A stretch of DNA of 34,040 nt, from contig JAUSEW010000028.1 in assembly GCA_030651475.1 (NCBI GenBank), forward strand, positions 1 to 34,040, read 5' to 3'. This document shows, piece after piece, positions 1-12,206 of the stretch. Within the stretch, counting starts at the first letter, position 1, and each line of letters opens with the position of its first letter. Below the pieces are notes generated by a model that was not told where the DNA came from, did not search any database, and worked only from the letters and a program-made list of their open reading frames with translations. This stretch comes from Candidatus Levyibacteriota bacterium. GTDB taxonomy: Bacteria > Patescibacteriota > Microgenomatia > Levybacterales > UBA12049. The position numbers were made by a program, and so were the translations under genes.

Positions 1-515
1 GATAACGCTAGCCTCCTACGCATTACCGAGACTTCTGGCACGTAGTTAGTAGAGGCTTATTCTATAGTCCGTGAAGAGACTATCAAAAGGAGTTTACGAC
101 CCTAAGGCCTTCTTCCTCCACGCGGCGTCGCTGGGTCAGACTTTCGTCCATTGCCCAATATTCCTGGTTGCTGCCACCCGTAGGTGTACTGCCCGTGTCT
201 AAGTGCAGTTGTGGCTGATCGACCTCTCAGTCCAGCTACCCGTCAGAGCCTTGGTAGGCCATTACCCCACCAACTAGCTGATAGGACGTAGGCTCCTCTC
301 TTGGCGCGAAGTTAATCGCTTTACCCATTCGATTTCTCTCAGGGACTATGGACTATTACCCCATCTTTCGATGAGCTATGGTCCACCTAGAGGTAGATTC
401 CTACGCATTACTCACCCGTCTGCCGGTTTCCCGCATTGCTGCGGGACCCCTTGACTTGCATGCTTAAGGCACGCCGCCAGCGTTCATCCTGAACCAGGAT
501 CAAATTCTCAAAAAG
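1..515 (-). rRNA. rrs: 16S ribosomal RNA, 5' portion only (truncated by window edge)
   Basis: Reverse complement reads GAGAATTTGATCCTGGTTCAGGATGAACGCTGGCGGCGTGCCTTAAGCATGCAAGTCAAG ... ACGGGTGAGTAATGCGTAG ... CTATCAGCTAGTTGGTGGGGTAATGGCCTACCAAGGC ... GTGCCAGAAGTCTCGGTAATGCGTAGGAGGCTAGCGTTATC, i.e. canonical 16S landmarks up to the 530 loop. 5' end approximate. Confidence 0.97.
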
Positions 516-828: not shown

Positions 829-1746
829 TTATTTTTGGCGGTCGGGAGTTTCGGTTTTTTTATTGAGATCTCCCTTGTTGGGCTTTTCGCTTTCACTTCT
901 TTTTTCCTGCTTTTGTCTATTTTCACTTCTGTTTTCTTCTAAATCTTTTTTAATTTTATCAAGTGTTACTTTTGTTTCTTTTATCGTTTCTGCAATTTTT
1001 TTCTGTTCCGAAACTTGGGTAGATTCTGATGGAGTAGCTTGCGTAATGGGCACTACTGTAGGCACAATTGTTATTGTTGGGATTGGCGTTGATGAAGGTT
1101 GCGGGAAAGACTGACTGCTAACAATTCGGGGTGTTGGACTTGGTATTGCAGTTGGCGTTGGGGAAGGAGGAATTGGCGTTGGGGTTAGCACTGTTTCCTG
1201 AAATTGGTAGCTAATCACATTTTGTTCTGTTTTAGCCTGAAGAGTAGATAAGCCATTTTGATATTCGTCAATTTTACTTATAAGTTTTTCTTCTGCGGTT
1301 TTTCTTTCGGTATCGCTTGTCAGATTTGTCACTTCGAGCTGCGCTCCTTGCACTTCGTCAACAAAAGTCGACAAACCGCTTGCGTTAGATTTAGATAAAA
1401 CCAAACTCTGGGCTTCTTTAAATCTAGTTTCCGTTAAGTTTGTCCTAAAAGCTACTCTTGTTGCAGGGTTCACGGATGCAGCAGCCAAAACTACATTTTC
1501 CAAACCTCGTTTAACCGGATAAAATAAATCTCCCGGCACGCTATCTTGGGATAAGAAAATAAGAACTGTAATCGGCAAAAAAGCAAAAAGGATAATCCAA
1601 GTGCTTATATTTAAAAATCGCCTTAAGGATCTCTTTTCTTGAGGCGGTTGCTGTTGATCGGAGGAAATATTAAGCGCTTCCGGCTCAAGAGAAACTTGCT
1701 GAACGGGAACTTGTTGGGCTGTATCTTGGGTAGGAAAAGTATCCAC
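829..1746 (-). CDS. Membrane-anchored DUF5667-like protein with P/T/S-rich linker
   Basis: Single TM then SVPGDLFYPVKRGLENVVLAA...RTNLTETRFKEAQSL (DUF5667-type), TPTPIPPSPTPT linker, charged C-terminus. TTGACA-17-TAGAGT lies just upstream. Confidence 0.75.
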   Translation of the reverse strand: MDTFPTQDTAQQVPVQQVSLEPEALNISSDQQQPPQEKRSLRRFLNISTWIILFAFLPITVLIFLSQDSVPGDLFYPVKRGLENVVLAAASVNPATRVAFRTNLTETRFKEAQSLVLSKSNASGLSTFVDEVQGAQLEVTNLTSDTERKTAEEKLISKIDEYQNGLSTLQAKTEQNVISYQFQETVLTPTPIPPSPTPTAIPSPTPRIVSSQSFPQPSSTPIPTITIVPTVVPITQATPSESTQVSEQKKIAETIKETKVTLDKIKKDLEENRSENRQKQEKRSESEKPNKGDLNKKTETPDRQK

Positions 1747-1777
1747 ATCCTAACTCTAATAAAAACCCGAACCTCTG

Positions 1778-1879
1778 TCAACTTGTTATTCTTTTCATCG
1801 CTTTATACAAAACAATTCCCAAACTTACCATCACATTGAGTGATTTATTCACTCCCCACATCGGAATTTCGACGATTAT
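1778..1879 (-). pseudogene. SpoU/TrmH methyltransferase 3'-end remnant f1
   Basis: Minus frame reads IIVEIPMWGVNKSLNVMVSLGIVLYKAMKRITS*, matching the C-terminus of the intact gene at 5649-6182. Confidence 0.85.
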
Positions 1880-1892
1880 TGATTTATTATTT

Positions 1893-1931
1893 TTGACAAC
1901 TAATTTAGGCGATCGCTTAAAAAAGTTGTCA
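1893..1931. repeat. GCGATCGC-centred palindrome, copy 1
   Basis: ttgacaactaatttaggcgatcgcttaaaaaagttgtca; outer arms TGACAACT/AGTTGTCA. Confidence 0.85.
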
Positions 1932-1947
1932 CATTCTAATGCACTAC

Positions 1948-2091
1948 TTAGTAGATACCCACGGCTAAAGCCGTGGAACTCTGCCGCTGATGCGGCCGTT
2001 TAGATAGATATTTCTGTATTTTACTTTTTAATTTAGAAAAGGCTTCAGGTAATCTTTTCTCTCCCTCTGCTAATGATTGATTAGTTTCCAT
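1948..2091 (-). CDS. Small ORF (47 aa) whose C-terminus is read through a hairpin repeat
   Basis: METNQSLAEGEKRLPEAFSKLKSKIQKYLSKRPHQRQSSTALAVGIY*; preceded by a TTGACA promoter. Probably a truncated gene. Confidence 0.4.
   Translation of the reverse strand: METNQSLAEGEKRLPEAFSKLKSKIQKYLSKRPHQRQSSTALAVGIY
1951..1996. repeat. REP/IS200-end-like double hairpin
   Basis: GTAG-ATACCCACGGCTAAAGCCGTGG then GCCGC-TGAT-GCGGC; resembles REP or IS200/IS605 end hairpins. Confidence 0.5.
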
Positions 2092-2144
2092 AGTTTAACT
2101 GTTGTTAATCTTATCAAAAAAAAGCTTTTGTCAAGAGAGCAAAA

Positions 2145-2197
2145 CTATAAAACGTTAGAAGTCTTACCCATCACTTCGTACAAAACAATTCCCAGGG
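2145..2197 (-). pseudogene. SpoU/TrmH 3'-end remnant f3 (short)
   Basis: Minus frame reads SLGIVLYEVMGKTSNVL*, immediately downstream of the 2209-3069 ORF. Confidence 0.7.
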
Positions 2198-2208
2198 AAA
2201 GACCGTCC

Positions 2209-3069
2209 CTATTTATACTTTTCTAAATAAGAAATAACCCTTTCTGCATATATCGGGTTTATCTGCGCCAATGCCTCTTTCAATCTTACAATATTATTAT
2301 TAAATATACGTAATAACTTTAAGGATGACTCATGAAATAACATATTAAAATCCGCACTATCCATTTGTCCTCCTGAAGTTATTCTGTCCGCAAGTTCCCC
2401 AATTTGCGTGACCGCTATGCTTGGTGCCACTTTTACTAAACCCGCAAATCCCAATTGAGATTTAACATATTTCGCATCACCTTCAGCGGTAGTAGCCTCT
2501 TTCCAGATATCTAGCCATCTATCATGCGAATCCCCTTCCTTTGCCAAACTAAATTGTGCATACAGAAGCGCTCTCGCTGTACCTTGGTCAAACTCATCAC
2601 TAATTGAATTAAGATAGTGAAACCTGTGAATATCTGCTAAATAATTTATCGAATCTTTCATCTTCAGTAGATCGTTTTCATTGCCTTCCAGCTTAGACAA
2701 TCCAAAAGTTACCAACCAACTAAGTTGACTCATCACGTTTCTGTCATCAGCAGAAAATATCTTACCATTCTTGTTTTTTATAACAAATTTATTAAAGAGT
2801 CCTGATGTTGCTTGCGTAATTCTCTCCCCAAGTACTCGATCCGAGTTGGCTGCCGCAATTAAAAACTGCGTAGGAGTTTCATCATGCAAAATATCTATTG
2901 AAGGCCTTGAATTTTCTTCCGGAGTACTTACTCTAAACAAAATATAATCTTCCAATTCCCTTTGAGATAATTGACGAAGAGATGTAGCAAACATTTCCGG
3001 CGTAGTAAAGGGGTGTCCATGATCAGGAATTTTATCCCACCAACTTGATTGTGATGCTTCTGCTCTCAT
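2209..3069 (-). CDS. Hypothetical protein (286 aa)
   Basis: Long ORF with a TTGCAA-17-TAGAAT promoter upstream; no recognised family. Confidence 0.7.
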   Translation of the reverse strand: MRAEASQSSWWDKIPDHGHPFTTPEMFATSLRQLSQRELEDYILFRVSTPEENSRPSIDILHDETPTQFLIAAANSDRVLGERITQATSGLFNKFVIKNKNGKIFSADDRNVMSQLSWLVTFGLSKLEGNENDLLKMKDSINYLADIHRFHYLNSISDEFDQGTARALLYAQFSLAKEGDSHDRWLDIWKEATTAEGDAKYVKSQLGFAGLVKVAPSIAVTQIGELADRITSGGQMDSADFNMLFHESSLKLLRIFNNNIVRLKEALAQINPIYAERVISYLEKYK

Positions 3070-3114
3070 AGCAGCAAGATTCTATCATTTACGAGAAGGT
3101 ATTGCAAAAACAAT

Positions 3115-3137
3115 CGACTACGCTCAGGGCCTTCGGC
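3115..3137. repeat. Short REP-like repeat
   Basis: cgactacgctcagggccttcggc; makes the aberrant tail ECRRP* of SpoU remnant f2. Confidence 0.45.
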
Positions 3138-3227
3138 ATTCTTCCATAACTTTAAACAGTATAATTCCCAATGAAGCCATTACGTTTAAACTTTTATTTA
3201 CTCCCCACATCGGGATTTCTACAATCT
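3124..3227 (-). pseudogene. SpoU/TrmH 3'-end remnant f2
   Basis: Minus frame reads QIVEIPMWGVNKSLNVMASLGIILFKVMEECRRP*. Confidence 0.85.
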
Positions 3228-3246
3228 GAAAGAGTAATAGGACTTT

Positions 3247-3828
3247 TTATTGAACTTGATAGGAGATTTCTTTTTCAAAGATACCATTGGTATAGACTTT
3301 CACTTTATATTGCCCAACAGGACGAATAGATGTTGAATTTTTGAGAGTCCAGACAAAACTTGTGTTATTGGTATTAGATTTTGTAATTTTTATGCTTCTA
3401 TTGTCAAGAAATTTATTGTTTAAGTATCTCACATACTCAATTCGTGTTCCCACTTTTGCGTTCTGAAGCGTAGTCACAGCATAGATGTTCTTATCTGTGG
3501 TTAAAAATGTAGCTGTAGGCTTAATTGCTTCCCCTGTTTTTAGATCTATACCCTTGGCAGTAACAACACTTATAATAATACCAGGTGCTTTACTGCGTGG
3601 AAGAGTAGGTTTTGGCTGTACTGCCGGTTGAGCAATAACCTGCTGGGTTTGAGTAGTTGAGCGAGACTTTTGGGTGACAAGGTAGCCGATCAATATGAGA
3701 ATAAGGACACCAAGACCACCAAGTATATACAGTCTTGTTTTAGAAAAGCCGGTAGGTGGTACTGTGGCATTATTTGGGATTTCTGGTGAATTTTGAATAG
3801 GTTGAGTAGCTGATTTATTTTCTTCCAT
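3247..3828 (-). CDS. Single-TM anchored surface protein, unknown function
   Basis: TM RLYILGGLGVLILILIGYLV followed by a beta-rich extracellular-looking domain; 3 bp from the upstream ORF. Confidence 0.65.
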   Translation of the reverse strand: MEENKSATQPIQNSPEIPNNATVPPTGFSKTRLYILGGLGVLILILIGYLVTQKSRSTTQTQQVIAQPAVQPKPTLPRSKAPGIIISVVTAKGIDLKTGEAIKPTATFLTTDKNIYAVTTLQNAKVGTRIEYVRYLNNKFLDNRSIKITKSNTNNTSFVWTLKNSTSIRPVGQYKVKVYTNGIFEKEISYQVQ

Positions 3829-3831
3829 GTT

Positions 3832-4299
3832 TTATTTATTACTTTCTGATTTATTCTCTCCGCTTGTTGTTGTTTGTCCCTGTGGTACATCTACACCACT
3901 CTGCGTTTCGTTAGCATTATTCGTATCAGATTGCTTCTCATCTGATTTTTGACTTGACCCTTCAGAACTTGTATCGCCTCCGCTTTTATCTCCTTCACTT
4001 TCAACTGCCTCCTGTGGCTCAACTGCCTCTTCCGGCTCTACTTTTTCGACTGGTTCTACCGCTTCTGTTTCCTCCTTGCCTTCAATATTTTCATTATCCT
4101 TAACGTCTTTTTGGTTGTTTTGCGCTTCAACATCATTTGCTGTTCCTTTTTCACCGTCCTTAACATCTTTTGCGTAATCACTTATGACAGTTGTGGTGTT
4201 TGTATTACCTGGTGAAACAAGAGGAGTCTGTGCATGAACAATAGAAACATCTGCTAGGATTGCAAGAAAAGGAATTAATAATATTAATAATTTTTTCAT
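3832..4299 (-). CDS. Secreted acidic low-complexity protein
   Basis: Signal peptide MKKLLILLIPFLAILADVSIVHA; EAVEPVEKVEPEEAVEPQEAVE repeats; TTGACA-17-TACGCT promoter upstream. Confidence 0.65.
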   Translation of the reverse strand: MKKLLILLIPFLAILADVSIVHAQTPLVSPGNTNTTTVISDYAKDVKDGEKGTANDVEAQNNQKDVKDNENIEGKEETEAVEPVEKVEPEEAVEPQEAVESEGDKSGGDTSSEGSSQKSDEKQSDTNNANETQSGVDVPQGQTTTSGENKSESNK

Positions 4300-4345
4300 T
4301 CTAAATCTTAACTCGTAATTAGCGTATCAGTTTATAAAATGCTTG

Positions 4346-4388
4346 TCAAACCAGTTTTTCTGCAATTTTAAATAAAACAATTCCCGGA
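4346..4388 (-). pseudogene. SpoU/TrmH 3'-end remnant f4 (short)
   Basis: Minus frame reads (P)GIVLFKIAEKLV*, immediately after the stop of the 4402-5589 ORF. Confidence 0.55.
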
Positions 4389-4401
4389 AATAGAATCCCA
4401 T

Positions 4402-5589
4402 TTAAGCTTTTGCAGAAACAATCTCCATATATCTTTTTTTTATGAATGCCCTGAACTCTTCCTTTTTGCTTGAAGGGAAAAAATAGGATCCCATATACCT
4501 AAAGACTGGAATTGAGCAATTCGATGATAAAAAATCCAAAATCCGACGCTGACGCCTGCCCTCTACGTATATACCTGTAGTTTCAAGAATAAGATTGCCA
4601 ACACTCTCAAAGTTTTTACGGTGCCGCAATTCAAAAGTACTAGGAAAAGACATTGTTTCCCCTACTTCTCCGCAAACCAATTCCGTTTTAGTTTTTCTTA
4701 ATCTTTTAACTCCACCCATTTCGCTCATTGCTTCCATCACTTTTACTGCATCTGTTATCCTTTGCTTGTGTTTTGCATAAAAAACATAGAACCTTTGAGG
4801 ATATTCTCTTCCTCCATGTTTTATAGAGTAGCCAGTTTCCACAATTCTAATTGGTATACCGATAGATTTTAATACTTTCGCCATGAATTGAGCATTTTGA
4901 AAAGAAAATCCTAGCTTAAATAAGAATTTGCCAAGAAATACGAACGTAGACTGCTCTATATTTCTTTCCCTTTCAATAGAACCCCTAATCTGAATGGGAG
5001 AAAAACTGTCCAGTAACTCCTGAAGTTTTTTGTCATCACCTTCTTGTCTAATCATTTCTCTAATTTCTCTTACAGAAACAGTTTTCCTAGGCAAGATTAT
5101 TCCCCACCCCCTTAAGACTCTCCCGTGCATGCTAATTTCTCTTTCCGATAACCCCAAATTCTGCGCTATCGTGGCTAGATCGTTCACTCCGCTCTCTATT
5201 TCCTGTTTTATTCTAAGGCTTATTCCGCCACGAGATAAAGATCGCTTTTCTCTTGAAACTTGCAATAAAGGCTTATCAAAGGATATTCTCCTTAATGGAA
5301 ATTTATCTTGGGTTTCTAGCGAACAATTGCTATGCAAATCAATTATAAATTGCCTACTGATTTTCCCAATTCGCTCCCTGGTTAAGCCATATAGAAATCC
5401 TATGGAGCCTGCCGTTGTTTCAGGACCAACATTATATAAAAGACCTATGTCTAATTCCCTATCCCATCCGTCTCTGGTTATTTTTTTACTTTTAGGGGAC
5501 GGGTTATTGTGGGCTCCCTCTGCCATAGCTGTTTCTATAAATTCTATTTTCCTAGCGTATGACTCTGGCGTTGCTCTTACTCTTTCCAT
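4402..5589 (-). CDS. HTH protein with sigma-70-region-4-like motifs (paralog of 9875-11035)
   Basis: LDIGLLYNVGPETTAGSIGFLYGLTRERIGKISRQFI and VNDLATIAQNLGLSEREISMHGRVLRGWGI; extended -10 TGGTATAAT close to the ATG. Confidence 0.7.
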   Translation of the reverse strand: MERVRATPESYARKIEFIETAMAEGAHNNPSPKSKKITRDGWDRELDIGLLYNVGPETTAGSIGFLYGLTRERIGKISRQFIIDLHSNCSLETQDKFPLRRISFDKPLLQVSREKRSLSRGGISLRIKQEIESGVNDLATIAQNLGLSEREISMHGRVLRGWGIILPRKTVSVREIREMIRQEGDDKKLQELLDSFSPIQIRGSIERERNIEQSTFVFLGKFLFKLGFSFQNAQFMAKVLKSIGIPIRIVETGYSIKHGGREYPQRFYVFYAKHKQRITDAVKVMEAMSEMGGVKRLRKTKTELVCGEVGETMSFPSTFELRHRKNFESVGNLILETTGIYVEGRRQRRILDFLSSNCSIPVFRYMGSYFFPSSKKEEFRAFIKKRYMEIVSAKA

Positions 5590-5648
5590 AATCGAAGTAT
5601 TATACCATAAAAAGCCTGTAGTGCTAGAAGTTAGGATTTGAATTCTTT

Positions 5649-6182
5649 CTAATGCTTGCCTTCCATCGCTTTAAAGAGTACAATTCCCAAACTTACCATT
5701 ACATTCAAACTCTTATTTACCCCCCACATCGGAATTTCGACGATTTGGTCAGACATTTCCAGAACTTCTTTGGAAACACCGTGCGTTTCATGCCCGACTA
5801 CCAAAGCAATTGGAAAACCATAATCTGCCTTATCGCAAGGAACACTTTTTTCGTCTTGTTCAATAGCAATAATTTTTAATTTTTCATTTTTAATTTTTAA
5901 TTTGGCAATCGCTTCCTTCGCGGAAGGAGCGTATTGCCATGCCACCCATTCGGTCGTATTGATTGATGCTTTTTTAATTCTGGTATGAGGAGGAGTTTCT
6001 GTTTCCCCGCAAAGAATAACTTTTTCTGCTGCCACAGCATCTGCCAATCGGAAAATTGCGCCCACATTATAAGTATCCAAAACATTGTCCAGGATAATAT
6101 AAATTGGATTTTTCTTAATTTTCTTTAGCTGCCTTTCCGAAGGAATTGTGGTTCTTAATTCCTTGGCTTTTAATTTCAACAT
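5649..6182 (-). CDS. SpoU/TrmH-family RNA 2'-O-methyltransferase (intact)
   Basis: YIILDNVLDTYNVGAIFRLADA, LVVGHETHGVS, IVEIPMWGVNKSLNVMVSLGIVLFKAM motifs; TATAAT 6 nt before the ATG. Confidence 0.92.
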   Translation of the reverse strand: MLKLKAKELRTTIPSERQLKKIKKNPIYIILDNVLDTYNVGAIFRLADAVAAEKVILCGETETPPHTRIKKASINTTEWVAWQYAPSAKEAIAKLKIKNEKLKIIAIEQDEKSVPCDKADYGFPIALVVGHETHGVSKEVLEMSDQIVEIPMWGVNKSLNVMVSLGIVLFKAMEGKH

Positions 6183-9874: not shown

Positions 9875-11035
9875 ATGAATAAGGAACGTTTACCGCTTTG
9901 TCATCAAAAGACTGTTGAGTTCATAGAAAGAGCAGTAGGAGATGGCGTTTTTCAAAGACTATCCGCAAGCGAAAGAGACCAGAATATCACATTTGTCTAC
10001 AACTTGGGTGAACCAGTTCTGGACGATCTGGGAAAAATGACTAAGATAACTGGCAGAAGGCGCCCCGTATCCAGAGAAGCAATCAGACAAATAAACAAAA
10101 AAGTCCTGCGAGAAGCTTATGAGAAGTCTTCGGAAATCCGAAAACAGCAATATCCTTTTGAGAACCTCGAGCTTAGTAAGCCATTGCCACGAAAATCTAG
10201 GGAAAAGATATCTTGGTCCCGAAGAGGATTGAGCTGGAAAATAAGCGAATTTGTACGACGAACAGGGATTACCGACCCAAAGGAAATTGCCAAACGATTG
10301 AAAATTTCAACGCATAAAGTCAGTTATGCAAGACGAGTCTTGAGAGGTTGGGAAATAACCATTCCTTTAGCTATCGCCCGTTATAGAGATTTTGCAAAAA
10401 AAGTAAAAAGCGAAAAAGATAACAAAAAACTCCAGACAATTCTCGATAGCTACACCACGGGATCCCTCGTTGGATTCGTCAATCGCCATAGACACGACAA
10501 AGAAAGAATATTAATAAGTCTCTCCACCGCTTTAAGAGAGGAGGGATTTTATCCTTCAGTTAAATCCATAAAAGATTTTGCGGAAAAAGTAAAAACAAAA
10601 GGCATTCCAATAAGATCTTGCGACACAAAACGTAAAGTAAAATTTAAATATAAGCAAATATTGTATGTGGTTTTCCCCGGACACGCAAAAAGAATCATCA
10701 AGGCTTTGGAAAATGATCCAAATTTGCAGAAGTTCAAGGAGAATCCAATTAAGCAAATGTGCGGAATAACGGATATTATTCCAACCATAAAAGCTCTTTT
10801 GAAGAAAAATAAATACGGAAGCCTTGAGAAGCTAGCGTCCGAAGTTCTTGGTTTTAGGCCTTCCGGCTTCTCAAAAGTAAAGCTTGCAGATTTATTAAAA
10901 GGTTGCCTTGTGCCGGTATTTAAATACACAACAAAATCTACCTGGTTCTACCCATTAGACAAAGCAAAAAAATTAAAAAGTTTTATTGCAAAAAGATATC
11001 GAGAGATTCAATCTCAAGCTTCACAAGTAGCATAA
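9875..11035 (+). CDS. HTH protein with sigma-70-region-4-like motifs (paralog of 4402-5589)
   Basis: ITFVYNLGEPVLDDLGKMTKI...SREAIRQINKKVLRE; ITDPKEIAKRLKISTHKVSYARRVLRGWEITIPL; TTGCAC-17-TAAACT promoter upstream. Confidence 0.7.
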   Translation: MNKERLPLCHQKTVEFIERAVGDGVFQRLSASERDQNITFVYNLGEPVLDDLGKMTKITGRRRPVSREAIRQINKKVLREAYEKSSEIRKQQYPFENLELSKPLPRKSREKISWSRRGLSWKISEFVRRTGITDPKEIAKRLKISTHKVSYARRVLRGWEITIPLAIARYRDFAKKVKSEKDNKKLQTILDSYTTGSLVGFVNRHRHDKERILISLSTALREEGFYPSVKSIKDFAEKVKTKGIPIRSCDTKRKVKFKYKQILYVVFPGHAKRIIKALENDPNLQKFKENPIKQMCGITDIIPTIKALLKKNKYGSLEKLASEVLGFRPSGFSKVKLADLLKGCLVPVFKYTTKSTWFYPLDKAKKLKSFIAKRYREIQSQASQVA

Positions 11036-12167: not shown

Positions 12168-12206
12168 TTGACAACTTTTTCAGGCGATCGCTTAAAAAAA
12201 TTGTCA
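12168..12206. repeat. GCGATCGC-centred palindrome, copy 2
   Basis: ttgacaactttttcaggcgatcgcttaaaaaaattgtca, between the PaaX-like gene and dprA. Confidence 0.85.

Follow-up and report, generated by a model that had tools for sequence, protein, structure and literature searches.

The SpoU locus and its row of gene-end remnants

The stretch of DNA analysed here (34,040 nucleotides, in the following the window) is contig C11 of a 910,733-base metagenome-assembled genome (MAG) of the Microgenomates (Levybacteria-type), labelled G000, and contains a SpoU/TrmH gene that is followed by four remnants of SpoU 3' ends. The intact gene (5649-6182, minus strand) encodes an RNA 2'-O-methyltransferase of the SPOUT class with 177 aa (Pfam PF00588 SpoU_methylase, 115.7 bits, E 2.3e-33) and is the single full-length member of this SpoU subfamily in G000. 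It scores below the NCBIfam equivalog cut-offs for RlmB and TrmH, and therefore its RNA substrate is not assigned to either. Behind the gene, cassettes of foreign open reading frames (ORFs) alternate with the remnants, all on the minus strand, and each of the remnant peptides given here runs to a stop codon. Cassette 1 encodes a 395-aa protein of no Pfam family (4402-5589) and is followed by remnant f4 (GIVLFKIAEKLV, 4346-4387, 19.8 bits in a profile scan). Cassette 2 comprises two ORFs of 155 and 193 aa with a signal or membrane segment and acidic/low-complexity sequence, likewise of no Pfam family (3247-4299), and precedes remnant f2 (QIVEIPMWGVNKSLNVMASLGIILFKVMEECRRP, 3124-3228, 88.4 bits, E 1.9e-13). 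Cassette 3 is a 286-aa ORF of no Pfam family (2209-3069), with remnant f3 behind it (SLGIVLYEVMGKTSNVL, 2145-2198, 34.0 bits in the profile scan). Cassette 4 consists of a 47-aa ORF (1948-2091), beside which lie a near-perfect palindrome of 36-38 bp (GACAACTAATTTAGGCGATCGCTTAAAAAAGTTGTC, 1895-1930, strand not applicable) and then remnant f1 (IIVEIPMWGVNKSLNVMVSLGIVLYKAMKRITS, 1778-1876, 100.8 bits, E 3.9e-13). A TTGACA element and a DUF5667-like gene (829-1746, minus strand, E 6.5e-6, slightly below the Pfam cut-off) come next and represent the chromosomal flank, and the contig end truncates a 16S rRNA gene, of which the 5' part is present (1-515, minus strand, Rfam RF00177, E 1e-139). In many relatives SpoU is located just ahead of the rRNA operon.

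The original prediction, an intact SpoU gene with four in-order 3'-end remnants, was thus right in content, order and orientation, and the remnants do sit behind foreign ORFs, the one before f1 being just 47 aa long. The common frame that it also stated does not stand in the same way as the common strand, as the remnants have no reading frame in common that would mean anything and each ends at its own stop.

A whole-genome search with the last 32 SpoU residues returned the gene itself, f2 and f1, and no further copy. With a profile of the SpoU C-terminus, 100 SpoU loci from Levybacteria, Shapirobacteria, Daviesbacteria, Amesbacteria and other Microgenomates groups were scanned over about half a megabase per side. 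This gave 17 matches of at least 18 bits, all downstream of SpoU and on the same strand, and no match of this score was obtained on the other strand or in the 0.52 Mb upstream. Two of the 17 (L073; L077 +999) are weak, overlap other ORFs and have to be discounted. Remnants of 8-13 codons are weak one by one but significant collectively, and ORF calls were mechanical. Altogether, SpoU 3' remnants occur in about a dozen Microgenomates genomes (class-wide SpoU search limited to the best 150 matches; remnants found with a separate second search). Good examples besides the window are L118 (G022), L119 (G032), L048, L052, L068, L077, L087, L090, L102, L105 and G338, which has two remnants in a stretch without a full SpoU gene. 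Across the roughly 100 loci the remnants measure 8-50 codons and are never long. Their left ends lie near codon 145 and near codon 163 in the window, from which two discrete start classes had been concluded; when all genomes are considered, they range from about codon 124 to 165, so that these classes dissolve. Among the viral contigs, phages and plasmids searched, only ordinary TrmH/RlmB relatives were found and no carrier of the SpoU remnant type.

Some further observations concern the cassette proteins and the remnant junctions. A 313-aa homolog of the 395-aa protein is encoded directly after SpoU in G022 (L118:8803-9744), and a paralog is present at 9875-11035 of the window. This family of about 310-395 aa (4402-5589, 9875-11035 and L118) has no Pfam match, stands directly behind SpoU in two genera, and in one member shows faint similarity to sigma-70 region 4. 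Palindromes resembling repetitive extragenic palindromic (REP) sequences, CCCTGAGCGAAGTCGAAGGG, are found at or beside remnant junctions in L048 (8597-9140), L052 (8531-8590) and the window (3110-3130).

Serial insertion with replacement of the gene end

Relatives with an empty site allow the array to be read as a sequence of events. In L040 the intact SpoU gene is followed after 34 bp by a DUF5667-like gene with a similar TTGACA element, and in the window the DUF5667-like gene comes after f1, 3.8 kb beyond its L040-type position. In G022 an rRNA promoter and leader follow the outermost remnant, and the same elements stand directly after the intact SpoU gene in the genus-mate L037; in G032 (L119) a DUF5667 gene lies behind a SpoU remnant, as in the window. 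Because L040 and L037 are empty sites, the outermost remnant corresponds to the native end and all DNA between it and the intact gene to inserted DNA. We therefore read f1 as the original 3' end of SpoU, and the 3' end of the intact gene (5649-6182) would derive from the DNA inserted last, with cassette 1 presumably the newest and cassette 4 the oldest.

The kind of differences between remnants and intact ends supports a replacement of this sort. Fifteen pairs from ten genomes show 207 differences, of which 150 are synonymous (proportion of differing synonymous sites, pS, 0.755; of nonsynonymous sites, pN, 0.084; pN/pS 0.11), compared with a synonymous share of 23% predicted for a drifting useless copy; f2 differs from the intact SpoU end by 13 synonymous and 3 nonsynonymous changes. 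As the differences are mainly synonymous, each remnant was once a working gene end, and the replacement end came from a diverged homolog, in agreement with the earlier proposal that these are ends of separately evolved homologs. The control pair icd/icdC of Escherichia coli gave the same kind of picture, with an icdC remnant of 165 bp and 10 synonymous and 2 nonsynonymous differences (pS 0.29, pN 0.016). Serial insertion at the SpoU 3' end, with a new end supplied each time, is well supported by the empty sites in relatives, by the synonymous differences and by the recurrence in about a dozen genomes. The array hence documents, with good support, that foreign DNA was inserted at least four times in succession, one or two genes each time.

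SpoU copies that arose by an old tandem duplication, decayed where they stood and were interrupted by insertions would also leave remnants in order and orientation. However, no tandem full-length SpoU copies exist among the about 100 loci, the remnants comprise 8-50 codons, and insert-free relatives have SpoU beside the very flank that follows f1 here. We therefore disfavour such a decay and consider it very unlikely. The arrangement varies between genomes, and so neither of the two conditions named as refuting serial insertion appeared. The repeats of diversity-generating retroelements (DGRs), or chance similarity, are a still more distant explanation with a negligible probability. G000 does hold two DGRs with 3'-end repeats (C6:47250-49938 and C27 (L212):445-2987), each with a target gene whose 3' end carries a variable repeat, a template repeat further downstream and an ORF for a putative reverse transcriptase. 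A DGR origin was rejected, since 24 of 26 differences in the first of these DGRs fall on a template adenine and the SpoU remnants have no adenine bias; no reverse transcriptase-like ORF was seen near the remnants. Chance similarity is excluded by the one-sided matches of the profile scan together with the genome-wide excess of remnants described below.

Remnants at other gene ends

The original prediction had regarded SpoU as a special site. This does not hold, as eight other G000 genes have remnants and SpoU itself also has remnants of its 5' end. In a stop-anchored test over 872 kb of G000, the last 25 residues and the stop of each gene were aligned to the downstream 5 kb. Twelve genes scored at least 38, compared with 0.9 expected, and three of them look like paralogs; two further matches are the DGRs and were set aside. 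The non-paralogous remnant-bearing genes besides SpoU are galT, argS, tsaD, guaA, glmS, tsf, a peptidyl-prolyl isomerase (PPIase) gene and a surface-protein gene (the names of galT, argS, tsaD, guaA, glmS, tsf, frr and PPIase were assigned by eye from the sequence). The inserts are 0.07-3.3 kb in size, mostly hold single genes, and encode among others an AMP-binding enzyme, a response regulator, a TrpR-like repressor, a sulfatase and a radical-SAM protein. At tsf the empty site is again visible in relatives: frr directly follows tsf in at least ten of them, and the order in G000 is tsf, ORF, palindrome, tsf remnant, ORF, frr. SpoU is the most used among several such gene ends in G000. In the closed relative G013, the same test over 800 kb showed no remnant excess, and therefore the process does not extend to the whole family. 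There was also no excess in 200 kb of E. coli, a small baseline in which icdC lies outside the 5-kb search range. Of the 945 genes in the surroundings of SpoU in relatives, hardly any but SpoU have clear remnants; possible 3' remnants behind other genes were noted at L113:3009-4242, L087:9332-10292 and topA of L040.

The mirror image, SpoU 5' remnants upstream of an intact SpoU gene, is present at five Daviesbacteria-type loci (L068, L084, L090, L161 and, weakly, L096), of which L068 and L090 have both 5' and 3' remnants. The 5' remnants stop at codons 36-62, and all five inserts hold toxin-antitoxin-type genes or Fic (HEPN/nucleotidyltransferase, AbiEii, Fic, PIN with a MazE-type antitoxin, HepT/nucleotidyltransferase). 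The 5' scars, all bordering such genes, tie the process to addiction modules.

A further element shared between different gene ends is the near-perfect palindrome GACAAYTTTTTTAGGCGATCGCYTRAAAAARTTGTC, found at gene ends of G000 in five copies (window 1895-1930, window 12170-12205, C6:19378, C21:6950 and C21:21013). Four of the five copies are within inserts that end in a remnant, namely in the SpoU array and at galT, argS and tsf. The palindrome is rare in other genomes, and a copy in G012 (C47:2337) has no remnant beside it and is located where the ends of two genes converge. Its distribution is suggestive of a recombination site in G000.

A further explanation is a trans-acting cassette system with integron-like logic, in which single-gene cassettes with their own promoter and a gene-end segment are moved by a resident recombinase, for example of the Xer type. 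The compact unit of a promoter-like start, one ORF and a remnant, repeated at several genes, the rare palindrome in four inserts at four genes, and two Xer-type recombinases conserved in the family are in line with it. However, the target ends have no common sequence, G013 shows no remnant excess despite having both kinds of recombinase, neither enzyme reaches the NCBIfam integron-integrase cut-off, and the G012 palindrome occurs without a remnant, so that we regard this system as unlikely.

Proposed recombination at gene ends and comparison with known systems

The analogy to islands that the original prediction had drawn implies an integrase, and none was found in the cassettes examined. In 100 loci, a one-sequence phmmer search, by which diverged enzymes could be missed, revealed no tyrosine recombinase in the surroundings of SpoU. 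A Pfam scan of the window cassette ORFs of at least 155 aa and of 37 proteins from outside the window, encoded in cassettes or next to them, revealed neither tyrosine nor serine recombinases, only one Y1 transposase. G000 as a whole has no match to the serine recombinase family PF00239 and just two Xer-type enzymes, of kinds that are found in nearly all relatives including G013. Both score best as XerC/XerD-like in NCBIfam and reach 116.6 and 66.5 bits against the integron integrase model TIGR02249 (cut-off 265). Besides a 317-aa Xer, a 289-aa Xer-like tyrosine recombinase is encoded family-wide (G000:C9:67308-67778 and relatives). The longest identical runs between remnants and intact ends lie at differing codons, and most of them do not exceed in length those of matched gene pairs. 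These varied positions, together with the absence of recombinases from the cassettes scanned, make a single recombinase with a fixed core less likely and, to a lesser degree, also nine integrases that have since been lost.

We favour integrase-independent homologous recombination, or homology-facilitated illegitimate recombination (HFIR), of imported DNA at gene ends, and as a whole this is the best explanation, although we give it no better than an even chance. DNA of related bacteria would be taken up, probably through the competence machinery reported for Patescibacteria, in which competence and homologous recombination genes occur (PMC12455944). An imported piece carrying a diverged homologous version of a gene's last codons would then recombine with the conserved gene without a site-specific integrase, a step for which HFIR is a process on record (PMC3240628). 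The incoming version would become the working C-terminus with the new gene behind it, and the resident's last 12-34 codons would be displaced downstream as a remnant. Survivors would be those events that leave the host gene intact and whose flanking repeats, being short or diverged enough, no longer allow recombination back out, a filter that would account for short, mostly synonymous remnants at either gene end.

Several points weigh against this explanation. The remnants f3 and f4 share GGGAATTGT with the intact SpoU gene above matched controls (P ~0.04, uncorrected). The galT repeat is identical over 36 bp and then divergent, and that of the surface-protein gene is identical over 22 bp, both resembling direct repeats of the integrase type. 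The left crossover is not locatable, as the relatives are too diverged and identity profiles over 20 codons, saturated between genera, have no clear break. The stability filter behind the short remnants is so far an argument, G013 is without remnant excess, and the analysis, of one MAG with diverged relatives, encountered neither a donor molecule nor a circle, nor two strains that differ in the presence of a cassette.

The main rival is that the cassettes are decayed or helper-dependent islands of the kind of e14, integrative and conjugative elements (ICEs) or integrative and mobilizable elements (IMEs), which used their own or a borrowed target-end recombinase, brought the replacement 3' end on attP and have been reduced to one gene each. 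The element e14 at icd of E. coli K-12 has the same signature with intE inside the element, streptococcal ICEs integrate at 3' ends of housekeeping genes including guaA (PMC4701971), which is also a site in G000, and the galT and surface-protein repeats fit. On the other hand, about nine targets in 0.9 Mb need as many specificities, no integrase or detectable fragment of one is present in the examined cassettes and no serine recombinase was found in G000, some inserts have merely about 70-80 bp (argS, tsaD, L052), and no fixed core is evident among the SpoU events. We consider islands a serious possibility, though on balance doubtful.

In the literature searched, there was no paper on SpoU as a site, nor on gene-end cassettes in Patescibacteria. 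Bacteria of this group gain genes although their tiny genomes may, as here, lack a dedicated integrase. Only tentatively do we extend the favoured recombination at gene ends to a gene-end capture by which some Patescibacteria might gain genes: imported DNA would be spliced without an integrase onto a 3' or 5' end together with a diverged substitute end, any conserved gene could serve as landing site, and arrays would preserve the order in which the genes came in. Gene-end remnants can be read as scars that show where an insertion took place, when in the series it came and what the former end was, and any assembly can be searched for them even if the mobile element is not known. About a dozen remnants in G000 versus none in 800 kb of G013 make this a comparative and testable question.

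Compared with known systems, the G000 events are like e14/icd in that foreign DNA lies inside the 3' end of a housekeeping gene with a mainly synonymous substitute end, the old end forms a 3' remnant, and relatives have the empty site (L040, L037; tsf-frr). Unlike e14, a 15-kb prophage with an integrase, the inserts comprise 0.07-3.3 kb, no integrase was found, and they stand four deep and at nine genes. Streptococcal ICEs and IMEs sit at the 3' ends of guaA, rpsI, rpmG, lysS and others, flanked by repeats 12-54 bp long, and less often at 5' ends (PMC4701971); the events described here resemble them in the conserved gene ends including guaA, in repeat length and, at the Daviesbacteria-type loci, in the use of 5' ends, but the tyrosine or serine integrases and conjugation modules of these elements were not found here.

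Staphylococcal cassette chromosome (SCC) elements integrate at the 3' end of rlmH in Staphylococcus by Ccr serine recombinases and stack in tandem. The gene end of a SPOUT-class RNA methyltransferase as target and the tandem stacking are common to both, whereas G000 has no PF00239 match that would correspond to Ccr. Unlike in integrons, there is no integron-integrase match at the cut-off, the end segments are remnants of the target gene, the units have their own promoter-like starts, and there are nine anchors; what the SpoU array shares with integron arrays is a row of single-gene units, each with a recombination-like end segment and with the newest unit next to the anchor.

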